A DNA stretch of 64,000 bases. Origin: Dyadobacter arcticus (GTDB lineage Bacteria > Bacteroidota > Bacteroidia > Cytophagales > Spirosomataceae). Positions 8,570-50,467 of this stretch are shown here, piece after piece. Every line of letters starts with the position of its first letter. The first letter of the stretch is position 1. The DNA is taken from contig NZ_JAASQJ010000003.1 of the NCBI RefSeq assembly GCF_011762185.1, positions 434,001 through 498,000 of the forward strand, read 5' to 3'. The translations under genes were made by a program, and so were the position numbers. Below the pieces are notes generated by a model. The model was not told where the DNA came from, did not search any database, and saw nothing but the letters and a program-made list of their open reading frames with translations.

Positions 8570-9255
8570 TACTTTGATAATTCTTTGATAGGGGTCACTT
8601 TAATTTCCTTAAACTCAACCTCGGAGCCTTCGGATTGTAAGGCCAATTGTCCGGTTTCAGCAGTGGCATTGTAGCCATAATTAACCAGTTCTCCATTGAG
8701 CCAGACTTTAATAGTATTCTTAACACATTCAATTACCATTGAATTCCATTCGCCAAGTGGCTTCTCTGTTCCATCTGTCAGATTTGGGACCCTACGTAGC
8801 TTGTCGCCGTTTACACCCCATTTTTCTTTCGGGCCTCGCCTTTTCTCCATGTCAGGAACTGTAATATCTTCCTGGATACACCAAAAATCTCCTGCATTTT
8901 GGTTCATCATTTGCACTTCAATTGATTTTGGGAACATATCGTAAAGCGCCCTGGAAGTTGAAACGAAAACCAGCGCGCCGCAATTGCCAGGTTTTCCGGC
9001 AAACCGGTATTGGAACGTCCAGCGGAAATTGTTGTATTCTGTATCTGTGATCAAATGTCCTCCCGGTGACCCCAGACTTACCAATAACCCATTCCTGACT
9101 AAAAATGGACTTTTGACGGTCGCATCTTTGTCCATTTCAGGAACATCCACGTGCCAGCCTTTCAAGTCTTTTCTATTGAATAGCGATTTGGATTGGCTTT
9201 GAGCATATTGAATACTCAGGAGGTTGAGGCAGGCTAGCAGAATCAGCTTTTTCAT
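8569..9255 (-). CDS. DUF1080 protein (3-keto-disaccharide hydrolase family), secreted
   Basis: A signal peptide (MKKLILLACLNLLSIQYAQS) precedes a 205-residue LamG-like beta-sandwich. SLFNRKDLKGWH is the standard opening of DUF1080, and NFRWTFQYRF, GDKLRR, GEWNSMVIEC and the closing VEFKEIKV strand fit the family. Members include hydrolases of 3-keto-glycosides and many proteins of unknown substrate; they are very abundant in Cytophagales and Planctomycetes. Predicted location is periplasm or outer surface. It is the first gene of a two-gene unit with lspA (one-base overlap). Confidence 0.9.
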   Translation of the reverse strand: MKKLILLACLNLLSIQYAQSQSKSLFNRKDLKGWHVDVPEMDKDATVKSPFLVRNGLLVSLGSPGGHLITDTEYNNFRWTFQYRFAGKPGNCGALVFVSTSRALYDMFPKSIEVQMMNQNAGDFWCIQEDITVPDMEKRRGPKEKWGVNGDKLRRVPNLTDGTEKPLGEWNSMVIECVKNTIKVWLNGELVNYGYNATAETGQLALQSEGSEVEFKEIKVTPIKELSK

Positions 9256-9392
9256 TTTATACCGAGACTATTTTGAGTTTAATAGTATTTCAATTGGAAA
9301 AATTAAGTAATAATAACCTTAATACGGATGCTGTGGCGTGAAATATAAAAGATATGCTCTAAATTGAACCTGTACCTTATCCAAAGTTTTCA

Positions 9393-11219
9393 ATGATGTT
9401 ATTTAAAAGACTGCTTTTACTTTCGGTTTTTGCAACTGTCAGTAATTACGTAAATGGTCAGAAAATAAGTTATGAAGTTTCATTTCCAAATCTTGCGCAT
9501 CATGAAGCCAGCATCGCAATTACGGTTACTGAGGCGTCTCAAAAAGAGCTGACCTTTCGGATGAGCAGGTCTTCTCCCGGGCGTTATGCCACGCATGAAT
9601 ATGGTAAAAATATTTACGATGTGAGTGCCTCGGACAAATCGGGCAACCCGCTGCCAATCGAACGGACGGATGGAGACATTTACAAAGTTTCAGGAATCAA
9701 TGGTTTTGCCAAAGTGCAGTACACGCTTTACGCAAACCATGCCGACGGTACCTACGCCGGATTGGATCAAAATAGTGTGCATTTGAATATGCCCGCCACT
9801 TTTATGTGGGTTAGGGAGTTACAAAAAGCGCCGATGGAAGTAAAATTCAATTTGCCTGAAAATTCCAAATGGATCATTGCTACGCAGCTTAAAGCAACCA
9901 ATAAAGCAAATATTTTCACTGCACCTGATCTTCAATATTTCATGGATTCGCCTGTAAAGATTGGCAAGTTGATTGTTAAGGAATGGGCATTAGACAATCC
10001 CGGACAGAAAAAATCGCAATTCCGTATTGCACTTGAAGTGACTGCAAATGATTCACTGGCTGACAGTTTTGCATTAAAAGTGAAGCGGATCACGCAGGAA
10101 GCTCAGACGGTTTTTGGCGAATTTCCGGTATTTGAAACGGGGAACTACACTTTTCTTGCCAGTATTAATCCGTATGTCAAAGGGGATGGTATGGAACACC
10201 GAAACAGTACAATGATTTCCATTCCAGTCACTTTTAATGCTTCCAATAATCTCCTGGGCGTTTTTTCTCACGAATTTTTCCACACCTGGAATGTAGAGCG
10301 GATCAGGCCGAAGACGCTGGAACCTTTTAATTTTGAGAAAAGCAATATGAGTTTTGAATTGTGGTTTGCAGAGGGATTTACGCAATACTACGGCGAGTTA
10401 TTAATAGAGCGCGCCGGTTTTGACTCACCTGAGGGTTACTGCAATGAACTGACTGATTTGGTAAACACCAAAGAAAACACCGCTGGCGCCAGACGCATTT
10501 CGCCTGTTCAGGCAAGTTGCCAGGCGGTTTTTGTAGATGCTGGTGTGGCGATCGATAAAACGAATTATCCAAATACTTACACTTCTTACTATCCATATGG
10601 TGCCTCCATTGCATTGGCGCTTGATCTCGAACTTCGGAGGAAGGGGATGACCCTGGATGGATTTATGAAATTGCTTTGGCAAAAACATGGCAAAACGGAA
10701 GTAGCTTATCAGGTACCTGATTTACAAGCTATTCTGGAAATGTATTCAAAGGATAAACCGTTTGCCGAAGATTTTTTTAAAAAGTATATCAATGGTCACG
10801 AATCATTTGACTATGCCCCATTGCTTCAGATGGCAGGCCTAGCTTTAAAAAAACAGTTTGAAGGTCAGGCTTGGATTGGCGATATGCGTTACAAGGAAGG
10901 ATCGGAGCTTACGATTTTGAGCAACACGATCATGGGTTCTCCGCTTTATGCAGCAGGTTTAGATATTGATGATCAAATTTTGAAGGTTGACGGAAAAACG
11001 CTAGGGTCACAAGCGGAATTAATGGCAATTCTTAAATCACATAAGCCAGGTGAAAAAGTAACCGTCGATTATGTGCACCGTGGAAATGCCAAATCTGCCG
11101 AGATGACCCTAATTGAAAACCCAAGACTTTTAGTCGTTTTAAATGAAAATGCAAATCTGCCGGTCAGCGATGAGATGAAAAAGTTTAGAAAGGATTGGCT
11201 TGGTAGTAAGGTAAAATAG
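9393..11219 (+). CDS. M61-family metallopeptidase (glycyl aminopeptidase-like) with PDZ domain
   Basis: A signal peptide (residues 1-22) is followed by an M61 N-terminal beta domain, the catalytic zinc site HEFFH (293-297) in SHEFFHTWNVERIRP, the downstream Glu327 in WFAEGFTQYY, and a PDZ domain at about 505-585 (GSPLYAAGLDIDDQILKVDG). This is the standard layout of the family, which cleaves N-terminal Gly or Ala and may act in periplasmic protein turnover. The 608-residue length is typical. The start could equally be the second Met codon (9396). It is a single gene, divergent from DUF1080-lspA and followed by a strong terminator. Confidence 0.93.
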   Translation: MMLFKRLLLLSVFATVSNYVNGQKISYEVSFPNLAHHEASIAITVTEASQKELTFRMSRSSPGRYATHEYGKNIYDVSASDKSGNPLPIERTDGDIYKVSGINGFAKVQYTLYANHADGTYAGLDQNSVHLNMPATFMWVRELQKAPMEVKFNLPENSKWIIATQLKATNKANIFTAPDLQYFMDSPVKIGKLIVKEWALDNPGQKKSQFRIALEVTANDSLADSFALKVKRITQEAQTVFGEFPVFETGNYTFLASINPYVKGDGMEHRNSTMISIPVTFNASNNLLGVFSHEFFHTWNVERIRPKTLEPFNFEKSNMSFELWFAEGFTQYYGELLIERAGFDSPEGYCNELTDLVNTKENTAGARRISPVQASCQAVFVDAGVAIDKTNYPNTYTSYYPYGASIALALDLELRRKGMTLDGFMKLLWQKHGKTEVAYQVPDLQAILEMYSKDKPFAEDFFKKYINGHESFDYAPLLQMAGLALKKQFEGQAWIGDMRYKEGSELTILSNTIMGSPLYAAGLDIDDQILKVDGKTLGSQAELMAILKSHKPGEKVTVDYVHRGNAKSAEMTLIENPRLLVVLNENANLPVSDEMKKFRKDWLGSKVK

Positions 11220-38656: not shown

Positions 38657-40464
38657 AAAAAATATTTACCACACTATTTTTTCTGTATTCTATTTGCGGA
38701 AGCTTCGCCCAGACATTTCCTGTTGATACTATTTATAAAACAGGCTCGCAAGACAATCGCATTAATGTGGTCATTCTAGGGGACGGATTTACAGAGGCCG
38801 AAATGCCGAAATTCAAGGCTGAGGCGGCAAAGTTTGCGGATTTCTTTCTGTCCTATGCGCCTTATGATATCTACAAAAGCTATTTCAATTTCTTTTCCAT
38901 ATCAACCCCATCCAAAGAAAGCGGCGCAGACAATCCTGGAACCGCCCCTGATGTTTATAAGGATCAGCCAATTGGGGATAAGAACACGTTTTACAATGCA
39001 ACTTTTGGATCATCCATCCACAGATTGGTAACCATAGATTATACAATGGTTTTCAATGTACTGTCAACCAACCTTCCGCAGTACGACCTGGCAGTCGTTT
39101 TGGTTAATACAAAATTTTACGGCGGTTCCGGCGGATCCATCGCTGTGCATACTTTGCACGAGCTGGCCGACCTGATTGGCGCACACGAAATCGGGCACAC
39201 TTTTGCGCATTTGAATGACGAATACTGGGCAGGTGTGGGTTATGGATGGGAGTCGCCCAATATGTCTGCGGACAACAATCCGGCAACGATCCGATGGCGG
39301 AATTGGCTCAATTCCAATGGTATAGGCATTCATAAACATGGGACAGATTCGGAGGCGTCCAAATGGTTCAAGCCAACTGAGAGCTCGTGCCTGATGCAAT
39401 TATTAAATCAGCAATTTTGCGCAGTTTGCCGGGAGGCGACTACCGAGATGATTTTGTCACTGGTCAATCCGGTTGAAAGGGTGGAGCCTGATGCAGAGGG
39501 AATTATCGCGGTGGGAACAGGAAAAGAATTTAAGCTGGACCTTGTCAAGCCAGAGCCTAACTCCCTTCACGTGGAATGGATGCTCAACAACAAGCCTTTT
39601 GCCAGCGGACCAGATCATGTTACCGTTACGGGTGATGATGTCGGGGATTATGCAACACTTACCGCAACAGTTTTTGACTCGACGCTCCTTAGTCGCAGAG
39701 ATAGCACCAGGGAACAGCGGTCCTGGAAGACCGAATGGAATCTGGAATCAAATGCTCCGAAAGTTTTCAGGGTGCGACCATCGGCAGATAGTGTTTGTGT
39801 AGGGCGGGAGGTAAGATTAACAGCCACAGGTTGCCCTGGTGCCGTAAGCTGGTCAACCGGTGAGAATGGCAATAGCATTACTTTCAGGCCTAGCCAGACT
39901 TCAACGTACGAAGCAACATGTAAGGTCGAAGGGAAAAAAGATTCAATAATCAAATCAACAATTAGCGTACTTCCACCTCCGGATGCAACAGCGTCCAATA
40001 CGGGTCCTTATTTTGTAGGATCTACTATTGAAGTAAACGGAAAAGGCGGCATTGGTTACAGCTGGAAGGGGCCAGGAGATTTCAGTGCTCATACGCAGAT
40101 TGCGTTAATTCCCAATGCAACGATTAGCCAGGCAGGACAATATGAAGTTACTGTCACGGATCTTAACGGCTGTTCGGCAATCGCGACCACGGAGGTAAAG
40201 GTGGATCCAATTTTGGCAGTAGTAAATGAGCCCAATGAATGGGTGCAGGTGTCACCAAATCCCGCGAAGGAATATGTAAAGGTAAAGACAAAGCTCCCGG
40301 GCGAGTCAGCCTTTACTATTTATGATATGACCGGCAAAAAGCGTGCGGTAACATTATTTGAAAAGGAGACAGAGATAAAGCTGGATTTTCCGATTGGCAT
40401 GTATCTGTATCGATTTACAAACGGTAAAAAGGAGGTTTCGGGAAAAATACTGGTTAATCGTTAG
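38653..40464 (+). CDS. M64-family metallopeptidase with T9SS sorting domain
   Basis: A signal peptide (1-19) is followed by the M64 domain: NRINVVILGDGFTEAEM at about 35-51 and the zinc site HEIGHTFAHLNDEY (His178, Glu179, His182). Members include the IgA-cleaving peptidase of Clostridium ramosum. An Ig/PKD-like stretch (about 270-510) leads to a T9SS sorting domain (about 530-603, VSPNPAKEYVKV to EVSGKILVNR). The 603-residue protein is secreted and probably attached to or released from the surface. It is coupled to the upstream lipoprotein gene by a 4-bp overlap and converges (11-bp overlap) with the ParA partner gene. Confidence 0.92.
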   Translation: MKKIFTTLFFLYSICGSFAQTFPVDTIYKTGSQDNRINVVILGDGFTEAEMPKFKAEAAKFADFFLSYAPYDIYKSYFNFFSISTPSKESGADNPGTAPDVYKDQPIGDKNTFYNATFGSSIHRLVTIDYTMVFNVLSTNLPQYDLAVVLVNTKFYGGSGGSIAVHTLHELADLIGAHEIGHTFAHLNDEYWAGVGYGWESPNMSADNNPATIRWRNWLNSNGIGIHKHGTDSEASKWFKPTESSCLMQLLNQQFCAVCREATTEMILSLVNPVERVEPDAEGIIAVGTGKEFKLDLVKPEPNSLHVEWMLNNKPFASGPDHVTVTGDDVGDYATLTATVFDSTLLSRRDSTREQRSWKTEWNLESNAPKVFRVRPSADSVCVGREVRLTATGCPGAVSWSTGENGNSITFRPSQTSTYEATCKVEGKKDSIIKSTISVLPPPDATASNTGPYFVGSTIEVNGKGGIGYSWKGPGDFSAHTQIALIPNATISQAGQYEVTVTDLNGCSAIATTEVKVDPILAVVNEPNEWVQVSPNPAKEYVKVKTKLPGESAFTIYDMTGKKRAVTLFEKETEIKLDFPIGMYLYRFTNGKKEVSGKILVNR

Positions 40465-40753
40465 CTGATTTTGGCTTGCGGCCGACTTTCGTCCGGTTTC
40501 GGATCTTGTCAGGGCGCGGCCTGATTTCTTTATCCTGAAAATATAGCTTCAAGGATTCTAAAATGATGTCTTTTTGCGTCAGGCCCTCCCAATAACCATA
40601 ATCTTTCATGTTTTCCATCGAAATGTAATCACAATCAAAGGTTACCTTGGTGGGCGCTCCATCCTGGATATCTCCTGGTTTGGTAGCTGGCTCATCCTCT
40701 ACATCGGTAACCAGGGGCAGGGGTGCAAATTCAAACTTCCTTTCCTTCGCCAT
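40454..40753 (-). CDS. Small basic protein downstream of parA (candidate partition adaptor)
   Basis: 99 residues; the C-terminal half (YWEGLTQKDIILESLKLYFQ) resembles a ribbon-helix-helix or short helical DNA-binding segment followed by a basic tail (RPRPDKIRNRTKVGRKPKS). The N-terminus is acidic. It starts 4 bp after the parA stop, so the pair forms an operon. It occupies the place of ParB/ParG-like partners, but identity is not proven. Confidence 0.6.
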   Translation of the reverse strand: MAKERKFEFAPLPLVTDVEDEPATKPGDIQDGAPTKVTFDCDYISMENMKDYGYWEGLTQKDIILESLKLYFQDKEIRPRPDKIRNRTKVGRKPKSAND

Positions 40754-40757
40754 AGTG

Positions 40758-41522
40758 TCAGTTATTTATTCGTTCCAGTATTTCTTTTGTTAACTTATAA
40801 TAATCCTCAGCGCCATTGCTGTCGGGTGCGTAATCAAAAATCGTCATCCCGTTGGCCTGTGCTTCCGACAATGCAATGTTATCGCGAATGTACGAAGCCA
40901 TGAATACTTCACCAAGTTGTTCCCGGGTGGCGGCAACCAGTTCGTGGCTGATCTTTTTCCGGATCTTCGGGTTATAGCGTGTTGCAAAAACGCCTCCCAA
41001 ATTTGTACTCGGACTTATTTTTTTGATCTCCGCCGAGTAAACCAAAAAGTTGCGAAGACCTTCATAACTCAAAAATTCAGCTTGTAATGGAACATAGTAC
41101 TGATGACAGGATACCAATGCCAAACGAGTGTTTCCATATAATGCCGGCGGGCAATCGATGATAACGAAATCATACCGGTCTTTCACTTTTTCCAAGGCAA
41201 TCTTTAGATTGAAAGGAAAGATAGGCGCAGACTTAATGGTGTCTTCTCTGTGGATCATCTCCGCCGATCCGGGCAGTAAATCAATGTCGCCAACATGCTT
41301 CACAATCTCATCAAATTCGTATTCGCCTGTGATAAACGAGCCGCTGTCTTTTTTTAGTCCGGCATGTGTGATTCCAAAACTTTTGGTTAGACTGGCTTGC
41401 GCATCAAGGTCGATAACGAGCACTCTTGCATTGGCAAATTTGCTGAGACCGGCAGCAATGCTTTGGGCAGAAGTAGTCTTTCCTACACCGCCTTTGTTGT
41501 TGACAATACTGATGATTTTCAT
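40758..41522 (-). CDS. parA: ParA-family ATPase
   Basis: A 254-residue deviant Walker ATPase: MKIISIVNNKGGVGKTTSAQ at the N-terminus (P-loop KGGVGKTT), VLVIDLDAQASLT (A-prime), DFVIIDCPPAL (switch) and GGVFATRYNP. The ATG at 41522 is used rather than the TTG two codons upstream. The protein groups with plasmid and integrative element ParA, and its small partner follows directly. The role of this pair on the chromosome is unclear: segregation of an integrated element or positioning of a protein. Confidence 0.88.
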   Translation of the reverse strand: MKIISIVNNKGGVGKTTSAQSIAAGLSKFANARVLVIDLDAQASLTKSFGITHAGLKKDSGSFITGEYEFDEIVKHVGDIDLLPGSAEMIHREDTIKSAPIFPFNLKIALEKVKDRYDFVIIDCPPALYGNTRLALVSCHQYYVPLQAEFLSYEGLRNFLVYSAEIKKISPSTNLGGVFATRYNPKIRKKISHELVAATREQLGEVFMASYIRDNIALSEAQANGMTIFDYAPDSNGAEDYYKLTKEILERINN

Positions 41523-41736
41523 TGACAAATATTATATGTATAAAAAGTAATGGTTTATCCTACGTTCCGTACGTAAATAAACATAAAATATTTTTATCAC
41601 TAATATTTATAATAGAAAGCCACAAAAGTTTTTGTCTTCGTAAATGTATAAAACTTTTTAAAAGAATAATAAGTATAAAATGATTTTATTTTCAGAAAAT
41701 CCTTAATGTATTCAAAGTCAATCCATTAAAAACAAC

Positions 41737-43380: not shown

Positions 43381-43968
43381 CTACGGTTTTAAGGCTTTTA
43401 AAACCAATTCGAGCGTTTGGTTAATTTTTGGCTCATCGAATATGAACGGCGGTCGGCCAGGCATTGAACTTTTGGAAATATGAAATTTCACCAGTTGGTA
43501 TAAAGGAGCAAACGCAATAGACCAGTAAATTTCGACAGGTAAAGGCACTATTTCGTTCCGTTCAATGGCTTTATGCACGAACCTGGACATTGCGTGCAGG
43601 AAACGCATATCAATGGTTGACCGGTCGACCAATGGTGAATGTTTTAACTGTTCCATGAAAGTTATGCTATATGGATTTTCCAAACAATACGTCATCCGAT
43701 TCATCCATTGCACTTTCAACCCTTCATCAAAATGAGACTCCGGGTCGAAGTTGCGCAATGTAGCATCCGACATTTTCTTGGTTTCTTCGCTATACAGCTG
43801 TTGTATCAAATCCTCACGGTCTTTGAAATAGATATAAATAGTAGCAACCGATACACCGGCAGATTTAGCCAGCTTATGCATGCTCAGCCCGTCAAATCCA
43901 TCGTTGACAATGATTTCTATGGCTTTTTCCCGGATCAGCGCTTCCTTATTGATGTCCCTAGTCCTCAA
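43381..43968 (-). CDS. TetR/AcrR-family repressor
   Basis: 195 residues if started at TTG 43968. The N-terminal HTH is clear: IREKAIEIIVNDGFDGLSMH, KLAKSAGVSVATIYIYFKDR, EDLIQQLY; the rest is the ligand-binding domain. The frame has no ATG before the HTH. The longer possible start (TTG 44028) would place a perfect -7 box and a dyad operator inside the coding sequence, so 43968 is preferred. It probably controls the HMA-like and MFS genes downstream and itself. Confidence 0.88.
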   Translation of the reverse strand: MRTRDINKEALIREKAIEIIVNDGFDGLSMHKLAKSAGVSVATIYIYFKDREDLIQQLYSEETKKMSDATLRNFDPESHFDEGLKVQWMNRMTYCLENPYSITFMEQLKHSPLVDRSTIDMRFLHAMSRFVHKAIERNEIVPLPVEIYWSIAFAPLYQLVKFHISKSSMPGRPPFIFDEPKINQTLELVLKALKP

Positions 43969-43984
43969 CTGTGCTCTCTTTTTA

Positions 43985-44009
43985 CAAATATAAATGAACG
44001 TTCGTTTAT
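43985..44009 (-). promoter_or_regulatory. Autoregulated promoter/operator of the TetR-MFS operon
   Basis: A 20-bp dyad ATAAATGAAC-GTTCGTTTAT (43990-44009, one mismatch) overlaps the minus-strand -7 box TATATTTG (43985-43992). This is the usual geometry of a TetR-family operator: occupancy blocks the promoter. It lies 17 bp upstream of the TTG start at 43968. Confidence 0.65.
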
Positions 44010-44319
44010 TTATAAGGCGGTAGCTCAAGGAAATCGTATTCTTTGCTATAATTATCGAAACTGTTTTGCTCCGTCAGAAATGACTGTCCAGAACCCTGGC
44101 TCCATACGGAATGTACGCCCAAGCTAAACTGTTTAGGTTTTATGATTACGACGATCGAGGATTGGTTTTACTTTAAGTAACTTGCCAAAGTTTTGAATAA
44201 TCTGTTCAGAATGTATTGAGTACGAGTGGCCTTATCTTTTCGCAAAGCCAAACAAGGTGTACCGTGCCTTTAACTAGGCGCAACAGCAGAAATTCTCATT
44301 ATAATGAGTAGAATAGCTT
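44010..44319. other. 310-bp non-coding region between TetR and the HNH gene
   Basis: No coding signal in either direction. It contains a 14-bp perfect palindrome CTCATTATAATGAG (44295-44308) about 12 bp beyond the HNH stop, which could be part of the terminator of the island operon or its boundary. I saw no tRNA, IS end or direct repeat here. Confidence 0.35.
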
Positions 44320-44880
44320 CTAATGTACCGCCTTTAAATATGCTTTGTAATCCATGTATTTGAAGCTAATTTGAATAAACAAGTCCTTGGCCTCTAAGTC
44401 ACTAGTTGACTCTATCAATACTCGAAGTTCACTCATCTTTTCATCCAATTGTTCAAGCATCCAGATTATGCTATATCTCCTGAGATATAACTTCAGTTTT
44501 TTATACATATATTTTGCAGTTTCTGAATCACCTTTCGGAAATATAAAACCTTGCTCGTCTCGGTAAAAGTGTAAATTATAATCTACATCACATGGGTCAA
44601 GGAAATCGCCTAAATCATTGCTTTTTGCTCTATTAACATAGGAACAGGAATAAACTAGATTGTGATATTTAGTCTTTAATTCAGGATGATGACTTATTGG
44701 CTTAAAATGGTCGATCTGAAAAGTCCTCTTTCCTCCAAACCAAAAGTGACCACAGTTTGTGTAGCCACATTTTTCACCGAAATCTTTTGCTAAGTGCTCT
44801 TTATATCGTCTATAGTCGCTATACTCGACGCCCGTATAGTTTCTCTTTGGGAAGGCATTTCTAAATGCTATCTGAATCAT
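44320..44880 (-). CDS. HNH endonuclease
   Basis: 186 residues. The HNH fold is visible: FGEKCGYTNCGHF (Cys38, Cys43), RTFQIDHFKPISHHPEL (Asp57, His58) and YHNLVYSCSYVNRAKSNDLG (Asn74, Asn83). A C-terminal helical domain (about 110-186) of unknown type follows. The family includes restriction and phage-defence nucleases. Its ATG lies 20 bp inside the end of the receiver gene, so the two are coupled. As the last gene of the island operon it is the best candidate effector. Confidence 0.85.
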   Translation of the reverse strand: MIQIAFRNAFPKRNYTGVEYSDYRRYKEHLAKDFGEKCGYTNCGHFWFGGKRTFQIDHFKPISHHPELKTKYHNLVYSCSYVNRAKSNDLGDFLDPCDVDYNLHFYRDEQGFIFPKGDSETAKYMYKKLKLYLRRYSIIWMLEQLDEKMSELRVLIESTSDLEAKDLFIQISFKYMDYKAYLKAVH

Positions 44881-45502
44881 GAGATTTACGTAATTTTTGT
44901 GCTAGCATATCGACTTTTGTTAATAGTTCAGAAAGTTTCCTAGTGTCTTTTGATTGCCTTAATTCGTTTGGGATTCTACTTTCACCATCAAGAGCCTTTT
45001 CAATTCTTTGATCTAGTTCAGCTATCTCTTCTATTTCGAAGGCATTCAGATTTCTGTTCTGACCGTCCAGTAAGAGTTCTAATAGCCTATTTTCGTCTCT
45101 TTCAAGTTTATGCTTATATTTATCTATTTGAATTCTTATTCGATCAAGAAGTTTTTCACCCTGATCCATTTCCTTTTTTTCATAAACAATGTTAACGTCC
45201 TCCCCCTTGCTAATGGCATCATCTTCAAAAGAAGTCAATATAAAAACTGGAAAACCTTCCATCTTGCCTAAAATAGAACTTACCAAATCTGTGCCGTTAT
45301 AGTGAATGGCTGAATTCTGCTCAGATAGATCAAAATCAGCAACTAGTGCATCAACATGACTTTCAATTACAAGATCACTCGTGTCTTCTAGTAAAGGAAG
45401 TGGTGGGATTATAGTTACGTCAAAATGGTTGTAGGAAAATCTCTGGAACCGACGCACATCAATATCAGACTCGTCAACGTAAGCGACTTTATATTTCGTC
45501 AT
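44861..45502 (-). CDS. CheY-like receiver protein with a helical C-terminus
   Basis: 213 residues. The receiver pattern is present: VAYVDESDIDVRRFQ (acidic Asp10), DALVADFDLS with phospho-accepting Asp56, FPVFILTSFEDDA (Thr90) and IVYEKKE (Lys109). After about residue 115 the protein is a long, highly charged helical region, with no DNA-binding domain. It resembles response regulators with a protein-binding output. It is 12 bp downstream of the dual-GHKL gene and overlaps the HNH gene by 20 bp, which suggests that it links the kinase-like ATPase to the nuclease. Confidence 0.78.
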   Translation of the reverse strand: MTKYKVAYVDESDIDVRRFQRFSYNHFDVTIIPPLPLLEDTSDLVIESHVDALVADFDLSEQNSAIHYNGTDLVSSILGKMEGFPVFILTSFEDDAISKGEDVNIVYEKKEMDQGEKLLDRIRIQIDKYKHKLERDENRLLELLLDGQNRNLNAFEIEEIAELDQRIEKALDGESRIPNELRQSKDTRKLSELLTKVDMLAQKLRKSHDSDSI

Positions 45503-45514
45503 AACTAAATTGAG

Positions 45515-47989
45515 TTAGTAGTGAGGCAAGGTTATTTTTATCTTGAAGCCAGGGCGTGGTCTAAGTATTTCGAGATCACCACTGTATTCATCAATTGTCG
45601 ATTTAACAATCCACATCCCTAATCCGGTACCTATTGCTTCACCAGTCTTTTCATCCCTTTTAGTGGTATAAAAAGGCTGAAAGATTTTGTTCGGATCTGA
45701 TATTTCTTCCAATAATCCCGGTCCAAAATCTTCATATATGGCGCTAATTCCTTTGAGATTATTGGGATCGAAGGAAAAGCTCAATTTGATCTGTCTGTCG
45801 TCACCTGCATCATTCCTTTTAAACGCGTCTACCGAATTTGTGATCAAATTATTAAATATACCATCTAAGTCGATTTCATACCCCTTAAAATTTACTTCAA
45901 TAAAATTCCCTTTATCTATTTTCAGAGTGGTGTGTCTTCTTGACAATAGTGGATTCCATATTTTTTCCAAAGCTTCAATGTAGGTAACCATGTTAATTAT
46001 ACGCCGTGATCGCTTATCTTTTCGGACAGAAGATATAGAAAAGTCAAGCCATGATTTCAGCCTTTCATCCTGTTTCCTCATATCAGCAAGCATCAAATAT
46101 GGATCAAAGAATTGAGGTAGGACTTTTAGCTTTTCAGGATCAATACTTTGTAAAAGGACCTTTCTCAGCTCCTCCGTTCGTGGCAATATAGTATCAGTAT
46201 GGTTTCTAAATTCATGTGCAAAAGATGTTACAATTAATCCAGCACTCGCCAAAACTCGTAATATTTTTTGCTCATCTTGGAGTTCCTCAATATCTTCTTT
46301 ATATGCTTGTATTGCAGTAATCAACGTTTCCTTTTCTTGACTCTCTGTCTCTATGCTTGCTGTTTCTAACTTTGATTTCTTGTCCCATATAATTTTTTCA
46401 GCATCTTCTTGCGCTTTACGTTTTTTGTTATTCTCATCGTATATTCGTTTTAAGGTCATCATAATTTGGTTCCTGTCATTTTCAAAAACCTCAATTATTG
46501 ACTTCAATATTTCCTTGAAAAGAATAAAAGCATCATTTTCTTGAAGACCTTCTCTACTTGATTTGTCTTCGAAATTTATATTTCCTATTCTCGAAATGTT
46601 TACAACTCCGTAGACTTGTTGAGGCCTAACCCTATACCCCGGCCGAGTTACAGTAGGATTACTAAGAGCGCGTTTCCCAAGATCTAGCCAGTCAAAAGAA
46701 CTGCTTTTTGGTTCGCCGTAGGGACGCACTCTAAAATTGTCTCTGAAAATTTTTATACCGCCGAATTTGTCTAACCAAGAAGTTCGTGAACTGTAGTTAA
46801 CGGACTTATATGGATATTTACTCATCTCCTCATCCTTTTCCTGTCCCCCGCCTCTTTTCATAAAATAGAATGAAAAAGAAAAGGAACCAATTTTTTCGAG
46901 GTTATTGTTGACATCAACTTCTTTGAAGCCGGCTAGCAGATTTGTCAAATTAGTATTAATGAGGAAATGACCGTCTTGAAATGAATTTTGTAGATATCGG
47001 AGCTGATTCAATTTTGATTTATTGAAAAAGTCATTTCTTAAAAGTTCAGAATAGTTTAGTTCATTTCGAAATACTGTTATTGAAACGTCTTGCTCGTCAC
47101 TAACATAAGCATTTAATTTGTAGTCATAATCGTCACATATAGTAGGAAGAATCCTTCCATAGGCTGCTGGTTCCAGCGTGCTGTAAAGAAAGATTTCAAA
47201 AATATTAGTTTCTAGAGGCGGTACTAAAATCTCGAGATTGGAATACAATGATTGAACAGCCTTCTTGTCCCAAATATCTCTAAGATTATCAATCGATATT
47301 AGTGTTCCTTTACTATCAGTCCAATGCTCAATAAATGTCTGGTTAATTTCTAGACTCGATTGGATGCTATTAAGTTCATCGGAGAAAGCGGCTACTCCAA
47401 CTTCAACGGTTGCTTTAATATCCGAGATAATCGCACCCGTGGTATCAAATTGATCCCAATCGACATTCCAAGACACGCAGTCCGACGTTAGTGTTTTCGT
47501 AATAAGGATGCTTGAGTTGCCTAGTCTGTCGAGAGCAAAACGTCCGATTCCTTTTGCTCCTGTTTTAATTCGACTTCGAGTTCTGAAATTTGTTTTCTTG
47601 TCATCGGTTCCAATTGTCATCCAGCTTTCTCTAATCGTCTCCTTCGACATTCCATCGCCATTGTCTAGGATTCTGATTTGGTTGTTTAATGGATCAATTA
47701 TTACAACGCAAACAGAGGCTTCCGCATCGTAACTATTTTTAACTAATTCTATTATAGCTCCCTCTGCGTTTGAAAAATTCTCCTGTCCTATTAATCGAGC
47801 AGTTCTTGCCGAAACGGTGAATGGGATCTGAGTTGATTCAAGGTCTTTAATTCGTGAAGAGAGATCTAGAATCGATTGTTCGTCCTTTGGTAGCTTAGAG
47901 GTTTCAATTTCTAACAAACTTTTGAGTTCGTATAGCTGCGCTTTTGCACTCATTTGATGGAATTGTTTAGAACATTGCCACATACCCAT
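45515..47989 (-). CDS. Dual-GHKL ATPase: Hsp90/MORC-like N-domain and histidine-kinase-like C-domain
   Basis: About 820 residues. The N-terminal GHKL domain has IIELVKNSYDA (Glu82, Asn86), DNGDGM (110-115) and TGAKGIGRFALD (144-155), followed by an S5-like region. After a coiled coil (about 520-575) comes FAHEFRNHTD with candidate phospho-His593, then a second GHKL domain: NLITNSVDAF (N box), YEDFGPGL, IFQPFYTT and GTGLGMWIVKS. So the protein joins an Hsp90/MutL/MORC-type sensor ATPase with a HisKA/HATPase kinase core (numbering from the TTG at 47992). ATG at 47953 (MSAKAQLYEL) is also a possible start. Its stop lies 12 bp before the receiver gene. No transmembrane helices, so signals are cytoplasmic. 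Confidence 0.82.
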   Translation of the reverse strand: MGMWQCSKQFHQMSAKAQLYELKSLLEIETSKLPKDEQSILDLSSRIKDLESTQIPFTVSARTARLIGQENFSNAEGAIIELVKNSYDAEASVCVVIIDPLNNQIRILDNGDGMSKETIRESWMTIGTDDKKTNFRTRSRIKTGAKGIGRFALDRLGNSSILITKTLTSDCVSWNVDWDQFDTTGAIISDIKATVEVGVAAFSDELNSIQSSLEINQTFIEHWTDSKGTLISIDNLRDIWDKKAVQSLYSNLEILVPPLETNIFEIFLYSTLEPAAYGRILPTICDDYDYKLNAYVSDEQDVSITVFRNELNYSELLRNDFFNKSKLNQLRYLQNSFQDGHFLINTNLTNLLAGFKEVDVNNNLEKIGSFSFSFYFMKRGGGQEKDEEMSKYPYKSVNYSSRTSWLDKFGGIKIFRDNFRVRPYGEPKSSSFDWLDLGKRALSNPTVTRPGYRVRPQQVYGVVNISRIGNINFEDKSSREGLQENDAFILFKEILKSIIEVFENDRNQIMMTLKRIYDENNKKRKAQEDAEKIIWDKKSKLETASIETESQEKETLITAIQAYKEDIEELQDEQKILRVLASAGLIVTSFAHEFRNHTDTILPRTEELRKVLLQSIDPEKLKVLPQFFDPYLMLADMRKQDERLKSWLDFSISSVRKDKRSRRIINMVTYIEALEKIWNPLLSRRHTTLKIDKGNFIEVNFKGYEIDLDGIFNNLITNSVDAFKRNDAGDDRQIKLSFSFDPNNLKGISAIYEDFGPGLLEEISDPNKIFQPFYTTKRDEKTGEAIGTGLGMWIVKSTIDEYSGDLEILRPRPGFKIKITLPHY

Positions 47990-48042
47990 CAAGATTCCAT
48001 AATACAGTAATTCTCAAGAGTACTTTTTGTAATTTGACAATT

Positions 48043-49518
48043 TTACAAGGGTATTATAAAGTCTTCTAAAATGCGCTTCGTAAGTCCTCGCCACCCATGA
48101 CCAAAATACCTTCCTGTAACATTTATGTAATCTTCCATTTCGACAGAATTTAGAATTTCGACTAGCCATTCGAAATTTCCAGCATACTTAATATAATATC
48201 CTGAGTAGACCAATGCTTCCGGGTTTTTTGAAATAATAAAATTAGGTTTTTTTTTCATTGGTGAGAATACAATTTTTTCTCCAATAGAAGTGTCCATGCT
48301 CTGACTCCTTCCAAATGCATACCAAGCAACCGGATTCGGTTTTTTTTTGTCTCTTTGGTCAAGCAAGGTGCGTATGCTAGTCAAATATGTGTAGGAAAAT
48401 GGAAAACGTGCTTTGAAAATATCTTCTGGGATTATCTCAGTTCTGTTGTTTTGATTTTTTTGGTATGGGTATATTATGTACTCCGAAATAGAATTGTCTG
48501 AGGGTTTCAATCTTGAAGCCTTGATAATTGGCTTTAAAATGTCCTTCTCAATGCTAAATATATTTCCATGTTTGTTCTGGACTTTTATTATCGTTGGCTC
48601 TGGTTTGCCGATTATCTTAACAATGTAGGCCCAATCGGCTAATGTTGCAATGCCAACAGAGATCTGGCAAATATCACCTAACCTTTGCCCTATTTTAACT
48701 TCTAAGAATTTATTTGATAGCGTAAGGAACCAAAATTTTCGCCCGTTTAAGTGATTGAATGCAATCCGTTTCCCTAGATAGCTATGACCGTTAAATTCCT
48801 GATACAAAAAATTTTCGTGCGGCCTCGCATCAAAAATCGTAATTGCCGAATATGTCGAAGCATCTCCAAAAATCAGCTCGTCTTTGAAGTTTGTTATTTG
48901 AAGTAAGTTTCGTTTTGTCTCGAAATACAAGCGTAATAAATAAGCGTTGTCAGAAACGAAATATGAGTTAGGAGTGATGTAGCCGCACTTTCCTTGGTCT
49001 GTCAAGAGTCTGGAAGCAAGTTCAAAAAACGCGATATAAATGTCTGTTGAACCTTTAACACAAAAATCGTAGTTTATTTTTAGAAATTGTCTAACTTCTG
49101 GTGCCAAGTTCTGTATGCGAATATACGGCGGATTTCCAACAACGTAGTCAAATCTATGGTGTAAGAGATGGTCAAGAGAGTTACCGACGCTTATGTTCCA
49201 CTCAACATGAACATCATATTGTTTAATTAGGCGGTTTAAGAGAATTCTGCATTTTTGTACAGCCTCTTTATCAATGTCCCATCCATATACGTTTTCTAGT
49301 GCCTCTTTAAGTCTGCTAGGCCTAGTATTGGCGAGTATTCGTTCTACGATTTGCTTTAAAAATTGACCATCACCACATGCGGGATCTACTATTGTCTTCT
49401 CCGGTACCAAGCCGCTGAATTCTATGTCGTCCAGTATTTTCGTAACTATATAATCAGGGGTGTAGACTCGGCCAAACAGTTTTTTCTCTTGGAAAACTTG
49501 TATTTGTAGGCTATTCAA
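48043..49518 (-). CDS. Eco57I/TaqI-class N6-adenine DNA methyltransferase
   Basis: 491 residues. Motif X-like GRVYTPDYIVTKIL (16-29), SAM motif DPACGDGQFLKQI (45-57), VYGWDIDKEAV, and catalytic NPPY in VVGNPPYIRIQ (129-132) place it in the gamma N6-adenine MTases. The C-terminal half (about 270-491) resembles a TaqI_C target-recognition region (GRSQSMDTSIGEKIVFSP). No nuclease domain is present in the chain, so a separate nuclease would be needed for restriction. The start is TTG 49518; there is a stop two codons upstream and no later ATG. It is the first gene of the island, 50 bp before the dual-GHKL gene. Confidence 0.88.
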   Translation of the reverse strand: MNSLQIQVFQEKKLFGRVYTPDYIVTKILDDIEFSGLVPEKTIVDPACGDGQFLKQIVERILANTRPSRLKEALENVYGWDIDKEAVQKCRILLNRLIKQYDVHVEWNISVGNSLDHLLHHRFDYVVGNPPYIRIQNLAPEVRQFLKINYDFCVKGSTDIYIAFFELASRLLTDQGKCGYITPNSYFVSDNAYLLRLYFETKRNLLQITNFKDELIFGDASTYSAITIFDARPHENFLYQEFNGHSYLGKRIAFNHLNGRKFWFLTLSNKFLEVKIGQRLGDICQISVGIATLADWAYIVKIIGKPEPTIIKVQNKHGNIFSIEKDILKPIIKASRLKPSDNSISEYIIYPYQKNQNNRTEIIPEDIFKARFPFSYTYLTSIRTLLDQRDKKKPNPVAWYAFGRSQSMDTSIGEKIVFSPMKKKPNFIISKNPEALVYSGYYIKYAGNFEWLVEILNSVEMEDYINVTGRYFGHGWRGLTKRILEDFIIPL

Positions 49519-49586: not shown

Positions 49587-49769
49587 TTATTCATGACTCT
49601 GGCCTTGTTCAAAGTAAGGTTCGAAAAGCCAGCCATTTTTTTTCATAAAATCCTTGTAACGTTCGTATTTTATTTCTTCATCTGTCATGTTTGATAGTGG
49701 GCCGTCTTTTGCGCATCCCATCAGCTCATTAGCGATCAAGAGCCTCGTTTCTACTTTCTTTTGCTTCAT
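49587..49769 (-). CDS. Small hypothetical protein
   Basis: 60 residues (MKQKKVETRLLIANELMGCA start; ERYKDFMKKNGWLFEPYFEQ near the end), ATG 49769. Charged, with no motif I recognise. It lies between the PD-(D/E)XK-like gene (36 bp upstream) and the MTase gene (69 bp downstream), all minus strand, so it could belong to either unit. Coding status is uncertain because of size. Confidence 0.4.
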   Translation of the reverse strand: MKQKKVETRLLIANELMGCAKDGPLSNMTDEEIKYERYKDFMKKNGWLFEPYFEQGQSHE

Positions 49770-49804: not shown

Positions 49805-50467
49805 TCATTTCAATTCACAAATACGAAACCCTTTGAGCTTTTTGACATAGTCAGTAACCACCGGCGGATCGATATCTCCAAATAAAACTTCATAAGTACT
49901 TTCATAAAAAGTAAAACTACTCCCATCTGCCCTGACACGTTTCGTCCCAAATTTGTAAAGCTGCCCGATCGTCCCTTTTTCCAAGGCAAACTTATCGATG
50001 ATACCGATCAATGAAGCGACGGTACCTTCCGTTTCTGACTGATGGAATGAAATGCAGAAATAATGGGAGGTCTTGGAATTGGGTTTGTGAAGTTGGGAGG
50101 AAGGGATGTTTATTACGTAGTCACCCGCCAACATTCCGGACTTGCGTTTCATGGATTTGATGTCCACAGAAAAAGTTTGTTCCTCGGACTGGATCAGGAA
50201 ATCTTGCCCCCAATCCTGGCCGTCGACAGCCCCGAAGGATCGGGTAGGGCGGGGCAGGTGATAGCAGTCTGCAAAAACAATTTCACCAAGGCTGCCGGTG
50301 AAACGCATCATTCGGGTTTGGGAAAGCTTGTCGTCGTGGCGGTCCCAAATATTGGATACGAGGTGGTGACGAAGTGCATGTTCGACCAATTCGCGCGCAA
50401 AAAGCTTCTGTTCATCGCTCACTGAGATTTGTATGTACCACCCGTTGTTCAAAACAGTTTGCTCCAT
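49805..50467 (-). CDS. Predicted PD-(D/E)XK nuclease-like protein
   Basis: 220 residues. The order GSLGEIVFADCY (Glu in an early helix), DGQDWGQDFLI, then FSVDIKSMKRK matches the nuclease core pattern E...D...(D/E)xK, with catalytic Asp in GQDF and the DIK pair. The C-terminal part (ASLIGIIDKFALEKGTIGQL onward) is beta-rich. No named family recognised. It overlaps the upstream membrane protein gene by 19 bp. It could be a restriction enzyme or a defence nuclease; whether it belongs with the MTase island is open, as its composition is closer to the flanking chromosome. Confidence 0.6.
   Translation of the reverse strand: MEQTVLNNGWYIQISVSDEQKLFARELVEHALRHHLVSNIWDRHDDKLSQTRMMRFTGSLGEIVFADCYHLPRPTRSFGAVDGQDWGQDFLIQSEEQTFSVDIKSMKRKSGMLAGDYVINIPSSQLHKPNSKTSHYFCISFHQSETEGTVASLIGIIDKFALEKGTIGQLYKFGTKRVRADGSSFTFYESTYEVLFGDIDPPVVTDYVKKLKGFRICELK

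Follow-up and report, generated by a model that had tools for sequence, protein, structure and literature searches.

A conserved kinase-receiver-HNH module with an exchangeable DNA methyltransferase: a candidate phosphorelay-gated restriction-type cassette in Dyadobacter arcticus

Closest described systems

Kinase-receiver pairs in restriction-modification neighbourhoods were predicted in 2021 as the HEF_HK/Response_reg_2 elements (PF19191/PF19192), with HNH_2 as the best-represented endonuclease domain around HEF_HK (PMC8011034). GHKL ATPases of the paraMORC type were predicted in 2008 in restriction-modification operons together with methylases and HNH nucleases (PMC2292703). Here we describe a four-gene cassette of this general kind in a 64,000-nucleotide stretch of the Dyadobacter arcticus genome (contig NZ_JAASQJ010000003.1, positions 434,001 to 498,000), hereafter called the window. 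It encodes an N6-adenine DNA methyltransferase (MTase), a dual-GHKL sensor-kinase-like protein (HK), a receiver-like response regulator (RR) and an HNH nuclease. An earlier note on this DNA had presented the combination as a candidate new defence system. The general kind is already contained in the two papers (PMC8011034, PMC2292703); the HNH clade and its exchangeable MTase are the part that looks undescribed. The cassette is a real, widespread and under-described form of a kind predicted earlier.

We read the cassette as a mobile defence of the restriction type (or abortive), MTase-dependent and gated by a phosphorelay, in which a soluble His-Asp relay would switch DNA cleavage. To this reading, which is built on sequence comparisons, we assign a probability of about 0.5. 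Like the earlier note, we infer both the defence role of the cassette and the direction of its phosphorelay.

The cassette shares several features with the HEF_HK/Response_reg_2 elements. Its kinase combines HATPase_c_3, a DHp-like helix with the phospho-acceptor histidine, and HATPase_c, which is the architecture of HEF_HK kinases; it adjoins a receiver, and the pair stands beside an MTase, as in the published two-component-like restriction-modification context (PMC8011034). The HK profile of the cassette clade also reaches HEF_HK-type kinases at two of our loci, which are numbered with the prefix L (L126, 222 bits; L127, 238 bits). We nevertheless rejected filing the cassette as HEF_HK/Response_reg_2 because both Pfam models fail at the locus. 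PF19191 (cut-off 24.1 bits) gave no match there at E ≤ 10, with five sub-threshold matches elsewhere in the genome, and was not found by hmmscan of HK (P0003) at E ≤ 0.1; PF19192 (cut-off 27 bits) gave no match in the cassette's own genome at E ≤ 10. In hhalign, the RR family and two PF19192-type receivers aligned with a probability of 0.5%, with a shallow 2-row profile. The cassette further differs in its MTase, which is of the N6 type and not of the C5 type conspicuous in the HEF_HK paper (PMC8011034), and in its PtuB-like HNH nuclease, which is fixed in place. Neither a C5 methylase nor Vsr was found among the eight proteins scanned (four from the cassette, four nearby). At L084, a C5-like open reading frame (ORF), recognised by motif, lies three genes upstream.

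With the paraMORCs the cassette shares a GHKL+S5 module of MORC-like fold beside restriction-modification genes (PMC2292703), but its module is joined in one protein to a complete histidine-kinase core and has a receiver as its partner. No helicase family scored over cut-off in Pfam among the four cassette proteins. The HNH nuclease is of the same sequence family as PtuB of Septu (PtuAB) and of retron Ec78, and differs from both in being coupled to a receiver; Septu was set aside, as no PtuA-type ATPase match was listed for the four proteins. The N-terminal GHKL part of HK resembles the type II enzymes BbrUII/HgiDII, whereas the nuclease of the cassette is a separate gene. Membership in that group was set aside on the score of the HK N-terminus with the BbrUII/HgiDII restriction enzyme model (49.5 bits, far under the cut-off of 550).

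Detocs applies two-component logic in defence with three proteins, including its own response-regulator effector; to our knowledge, it has no MTase. Immune operons can be under the control of a GHKL kinase that single-stranded DNA activates (PMC13373217); this is a precedent for an immune role of such kinases, although the substrate differs. A GHKL-nuclease protein has been described in phage defence (PMC12137116). One figure of predicted systems in PMC13092281 lists HATPase and REC as abbreviations, and overlap with the cassette, judged from these abbreviations alone, is possible. The fixed HK-RR-HNH module and the exchange of MTases were not found in the literature searched, which had partial coverage (few subscription journals, no bioRxiv), nor was the composition of the cassette found in passages of PMC12839542, PMC7824862 and PMC7159879.

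A co-inherited kinase, receiver and nuclease

The earlier note had made its proposal depend on the genes occurring together in other genomes, and they do. When genome contigs were scanned with the HK alignment, 474 relatives were obtained, of which the best 80 were analysed. HK, RR and HNH follow one another directly in all 77 uncut loci; at the remaining three (L040, L045, L063) the contig ends before the whole HNH gene. A predicted DNA MTase adjoins the three genes in each of the 77, recognised by motif and length in 75 and by Pfam in two (PF01555 in L051, M_Eco57I_C in L075). Pfam was run on a few MTases of this group, namely these two and those of L024, L028 and L074, which it confirmed. 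Spacing is tight, with medians of +1 bp between HK and RR and -4 bp between RR and HNH (98 sets), and of -4 bp between HNH and MTase (81 sets). In the window, the ORF coordinates bear out the arrangement given in the earlier note, with four minus-strand genes in the order MTase, HK, RR, HNH, an MTase-HK gap of 50 bp, an HK-RR gap of 12 bp and a 20-bp overlap of RR and HNH.

Many of the 80 loci come from metagenome bins. By record title, they were assigned to Bacteroidota (58), Pseudomonadota (7), Campylobacterota (4) and Bacillota (2), with one locus each in Thermodesulfobacteriota, Verrucomicrobiota, Kiritimatiellota, Auribacterota and Methanobacteriota and four left without a phylum. On viral contigs, HK-RR-HNH was present in 14 of 19 loci, 12 of these 14 with an MTase by motif and length, and relatives were also found on plasmids. 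Among 395 genomes of Bacteroidota, the phylum of the window, HK matched 12 at E ≤ 1e-20, five of them strongly (at least 435 bits) and seven with 110 bits or less. HNH (E ≤ 1e-8) matched exactly the five strong-HK genomes, while the RR profile (E ≤ 1e-8) matched 11, with at least 125 bits in these five and at most 39.4 bits in the other six. The strong matches to all three proteins are co-located in those 5 of 395 genomes. Judged from these comparisons, HK, RR and HNH are one co-inherited, tightly packed module. A chance cluster of four genes was dropped as an explanation, given the recurrence in every uncut locus and the coincidence in the five genomes.

Some members of the family are possibly damaged: RR has only 70 amino acids (aa) in L046, HNH is spread over two ORFs in L059, and RR is short in L060. 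All three loci still hold HK and MTase.

The earlier note had read HK as an Hsp90/MORC-like module joined to a histidine-kinase core, and both Pfam (HATPase_c_3, 62 bits; HATPase_c, 64 bits) and the predicted fold uphold this. The AlphaFold model of HK (predicted local distance difference test, pLDDT, 80.5) matched two groups of structures in Foldseek at E values of about 1e-11 to 1e-9: the DHp-CA cores of histidine kinases (ZraS, CckA, HK853, CpxA), and Hsp90, TRAP1, MORC2 with DNA and MORC3, the two MORC matches lying at about 5e-10 to 8e-10. Because the model matches both kinds of fold, the domain reading stands, and HK is predicted to be a fusion of the two. NCBIfam models for HK score far under their cut-offs. 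The alignments of relatives behind the fold predictions held 54 (A4) and 45 (A5) sequences.

Residue conservation was counted over rows within length and score limits, without L007-L010, with the window included and percentages rounded down. In HK (98 relatives plus the window), His593, N715, N719, G757, G788, G790 and G792 are identical in all rows, and in 98 of 99 rows an acidic residue, Glu or Asp, comes directly after His593, the window itself reading H-E-F. The first GHKL domain is similarly conserved (N86 97%, D110 98%, K147 and G148 100%). In RR (93 relatives plus the window), Asp56 and Thr90 are present in all rows, Lys109 in 98% and Asp10 in 96%. The two residues that the earlier note had named for the phosphorelay, His593 and Asp56, are thus invariant across the aligned rows.

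The domain families expected from the earlier note were returned over cut-off by Pfam for the MTase (Eco57I, 83.9 bits; N6_Mtase, 54.6 bits), HK and the nuclease (HNH, 22 bits against a cut-off of 21.4), and no family was found over cut-off for RR. The receiver identity of RR is supported by its AlphaFold model (pLDDT 88.6), which in Foldseek matched receiver-containing chains in the PDB, including PorX, PhyR and KdpE, at E values of about 1e-5 to 5e-4. The first match listed is a chain of a dual-sensor histidine kinase; the matches beyond response regulators we take to be receiver-holding chains. Template modelling scores (TM-scores) by query length were 0.33-0.49 over the 50 matches listed, low because of the long helical tail of RR, and those by target length reached 0.73, for an isolated receiver. 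RR combines a receiver fold with the acidic residue, Asp, Thr and Lys of receivers. In view of these fold matches, and despite the Pfam miss, we dropped the suggestion of a non-receiver identity for the 213-aa protein. No DNA-binding or other output domain was recognised in RR by Pfam or in the AlphaFold model.

The nuclease scored 48 bits with the PtuB model of PADLOC and 24.7 bits with that of NCBIfam (cut-off 150). Its His58, Asn74, Asn83 and Lys86 are present in all rows and Asp57 in 98% (94 relatives plus the window). Four zinc-type cysteines (window residues 38, 41, 79 and 82) are all kept in 58 rows; the second and fourth are lost together in 37 rows, the window among them, and never singly (95 rows). 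The nuclease thus seems, from the alignment, to exist in a zinc form and a zinc-less form. The MTase matched MTase_II in PADLOC (441 bits) and, in phmmer, the PDB entry 7lni (59 bits) and BseCI (54 bits).

These residues bear on an alternative in which the cassette is a MutL/MORC-like restriction system without a working phosphorelay, with structural GHKL ATPases, a scaffold receiver and an HNH nuclease that cuts in a type II-like manner, as in BbrUII/HgiDII. The N-terminal match of HK to the BbrUII/HgiDII model would fit such a system, as would the DNA looping proposed for paraMORCs (PMC2292703). That match, however, lies far under its cut-off, and a mere scaffold would have no need of His593, Asp56 and Thr90 in all aligned rows and of Lys109 in 98%, so we regard this alternative as improbable.

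Exchange of the methyltransferase and its chromosomal site

In total, 99 sets including the window were compared, and 91 of them have an MTase by a motif-and-length rule. The other eight are L007-L010 (stretch too short), L051, L075, L106 (contig ends after HNH) and L107. For three of the loci L007-L010, longer stretches (L129-L131) contain an ORF that resembles an MTase by motif; L008 is identical to L050 in HK, RR and HNH, and L050 has an MTase. The survey of MTase presence was run on loci other than L006 and L011-L017.

Within the 91 sets, the MTase lies downstream of HNH in 81 and upstream of HK, as in the window, in ten. BLAST linkage divides these MTases into four families of 42, 41, 6 and 2 members, and the L051 MTase (PF01555) represents a fifth type. 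On the HK tree, the family changes at fewest 15 times across the 91 sets, the minimum possible being 3. The tree was built with FastTree; 53 of its 87 inner branches are starred, and some long branches (L109, L101, L104, L110) drew warnings. If strongly supported branches alone are counted, the largest MTase family requires 10 changes and the second 12. Pairwise identities correlate at 0.67 for HK-RR, 0.67 for RR-HNH and 0.62 for HK-HNH; the three correlations with the MTase are 0.42, 0.32 and 0.37. The window illustrates this clearly. The window and L024 (Algoriphagus), whose MTase lies downstream, are 73%, 62% and 62% identical in HK, RR and HNH and 31% in the MTase, while the window and L064 (Dyadobacter frigoris) are 68% identical in the MTase and 40%, 27% and 34% in HK, RR and HNH. 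On these comparisons, the MTase (METHYLTRANSFERASE) is a plug-in: HK-RR-HNH travels as a unit, and the MTase is swapped. Tentatively, the cassette may be viewed as an exchangeable chassis, in which a MORC/Hsp90-type kinase and a stand-alone receiver gate a PtuB-like HNH nuclease and MTase swaps have re-targeted the module many times.

L064 and the window occupy the same chromosomal site, with a 220-aa ORF, a TetR gene and further flanks aligning in order. They would constitute a natural swap, with the same MTase type and a different HK-RR-HNH module. Of 19 genomes searched, 13 (the cassette's own included), all of the window's genus, have the 220-aa ORF, and the TetR flank keeps its synteny in L064 and in seven genomes of the genus. 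These seven are the ones, out of 12 other same-genus genomes, in which both flanks were located; their site carries an MTase 45-47% identical to that of the window and in none of them HK-RR-HNH, and some of the seven have a DUF6364/PIN pair there. A 60-aa ORF beside the cassette matches three sibling ORFs in tblastn (50-65% identity, E 5e-10 to 2e-8). In L157 (1120-1847), the one sibling tested, Pfam assigned the pair to DUF6364 and PIN_3; it found no match for the 60-aa ORF itself, which is probably, from these alignments, the tail of a DUF6364 gene left behind by a previous occupant. Genes turn over at this site between the 220-aa ORF and TetR, which in sibling genomes holds an Eco57I-type MTase and sometimes the DUF6364/PIN pair. 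Taken on the sequence comparisons, the cassette is mobile and horizontally spread.

An ordinary regulatory two-component system beside an orphan MTase, with RR controlling transcription and HNH as a passenger, would account for the look of HK and RR as a two-component pair and for the same-genus genomes examined that hold an MTase at this site without HK, RR and HNH. It would leave unexplained why RR has no recognised output domain, why HNH is present in all 77 uncut loci, and why HK, RR and HNH move together between lineages; we consider it very improbable.

In the phosphorelay-gated mechanism that we favour, the MTase would mark self DNA and supply sequence specificity, and its role as a specificity subunit would explain why MTases are exchanged without exchange of the nuclease. 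The MORC/Hsp90-like GHKL+S5 module of HK would close, in an ATP-dependent manner, on DNA or on an MTase-DNA complex if modification were absent or the MTase blocked. This closure would make HK phosphorylate itself at His593 and pass the phosphoryl group on to Asp56 in RR. Phosphorylated RR would then bind or release the neighbouring HNH nuclease, and DNA would be cut, either that of the phage (restriction) or all DNA (abortive).

The exchange of MTases argues against an HNH nuclease with its own fixed recognition site, because a new MTase would not protect unless it shared that site. The exchange does not discriminate between a nuclease guided by the MTase and a guard set to watch the MTase. 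In such a guard-type abortive system, HK would keep RR phosphorylated and RR would hold HNH inactive in healthy cells; once methylation is lost or the MTase is inhibited (a phage anti-restriction protein could do this), HNH would be freed to destroy host DNA or RNA. The MTase would then be guarded bait and not a specificity subunit. Watching any MTase would agree with MTase exchange without HK-RR-HNH exchange, the RR and HNH genes touch or overlap, and the nuclease is PtuB-like, PtuB being a retron anti-phage effector by its NCBIfam name. The MORC/Hsp90-like module, on the other hand, may point to direct DNA contact, and we think a guard somewhat unlikely.

Several observations weigh against the phosphorelay-gated, MTase-dependent defence that we favour. 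The survey is biased, with HK as its anchor, seed kinases that all had HNH neighbours, and only the best 80 of 474 relatives; near-duplicates were also kept (L097/L098, L058/L061/L062, L114-L116, L031/L033, L008/L050). The viral contig L107 carries HK-RR-HNH with no adjoining MTase seen, so the MTase may be dispensable or act in trans. The swapped MTases may have converged on one target, and the specificity argument would then be weaker. Among the sets listed, RR and HNH were never seen fused. Defence-island enrichment was not shown by a PADLOC test of neighbours: for 126 of 263 neighbour genes, at E ≤ 1e-15, it gave 81 families, with at most two genes each among the 25 listed (counts are per family, not per gene), and 36 window genes, used as the control, gave two families. 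In the literature searched, we found no experiment on a cassette of this type.

Methylation, ATP-driven translocation and transcription are the controls usually described for restriction enzymes, and we know of no earlier restriction system with cutting under two-component signalling. If the phosphorelay-gated mechanism is true, a relay between DNA sensing and the nuclease would be a further layer of control on restriction, and the kinase-receiver pairs reported beside restriction-modification genes would gain a function. A conserved signalling-nuclease module with many different MTases would, in addition, exemplify in nature a restriction system that can be retargeted.

Distant relatives, gene layout and base composition

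More distant relatives of HK occur with other partners. A Deinococcus plasmid carries MTase-HK-RR-HNH in the four-gene order of the window, and a Campylobacter plasmid has a relative of HK with a C5 MTase and a response regulator. L126 and L127 have C5-like MTases (by motif); their 528- and 544-aa proteins pass PF19192 and their kinases pass PF19191, and in L126 an HNH_2 gene directly follows the PF19192 receiver gene. On a Hymenobacter plasmid (L132), an MBL-fold hydrolase (8761-9843) takes the place of HNH after MTase-HK-RR. That partners vary after a constant kinase-receiver pair would agree with the position after this pair being an effector slot.

Proteins of 345-544 aa stand in the receiver position beside the distant kinase relatives of L122, L123, L126, L127, L128 and L134. 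For ten long receiver-position proteins, Pfam gave a receiver over cut-off in L126, L127 and L128, under it in L134, L117 and L120, and unseen in four. No nuclease domain scored over cut-off in Pfam in any of the ten, and outside the receiver the long proteins of L122, L123, L126, L127, L128 and L134 match no Pfam family over cut-off. By their length and position, they are possibly fused effectors. PADLOC, run on the ten proteins and their neighbours, gave only the L132 MBL-fold protein with a match better than E 0.001.

The features of the locus are collected in Table 1. For HK, an ATG start at 47953 is likelier than the TTG, because the closest relatives (L023-L025) align from residue 13 or 14.

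Table 1. Coordinates of the cassette genes and neighbouring features in the window
Feature	Position	Strand	Remarks
N6-adenine DNA methyltransferase (MTase), Eco57I type	48043..49518	-	491 aa, TTG start, NPPY motif
Dual-GHKL sensor-kinase-like protein (HK)	45515..47992	-	825 aa counted from TTG
HK domains, N to C			GHKL+S5 (Hsp90/MORC-like), long helices, DHp-like helix with His593, HATPase_c
Receiver-like response regulator (RR)	44861..45502	-	213 aa
RR layout			receiver fold at about residues 1-115, then helical tail
HNH nuclease, PtuB-like	44320..44880	-	186 aa
60-aa ORF	49587..49769	-	resembles C-terminal part of DUF6364 (antitoxin-like) protein
220-aa ORF	49805..50467	-	conserved chromosomal flank, without Pfam family
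TetR-type regulator	43381..44028	-	conserved chromosomal flank, Pfam TetR_N

The low G+C content (GC) that the earlier note attributed to the four genes was confirmed, and its hand counts of 22, 17 and 28 G/C were exact on recount. The four-gene block has 36.5% GC, against 43.4% for the whole window. Of the sliding 5.2-kb windows across the 64 kb, 1.2% are as low as the block, and outside it the minimum is 41.5%. By gene, GC is 35.1% for HNH, 35.7% for RR, 36.9% for HK and 37.1% for the MTase; among the flanking genes, it is 41.4% for TetR and 46.5% for the 220-aa ORF. Near the cassette, a ParA-like ATPase and a small 99-aa partner lie at 40454-41528 of the window, and their order is kept in the L064 alignment.

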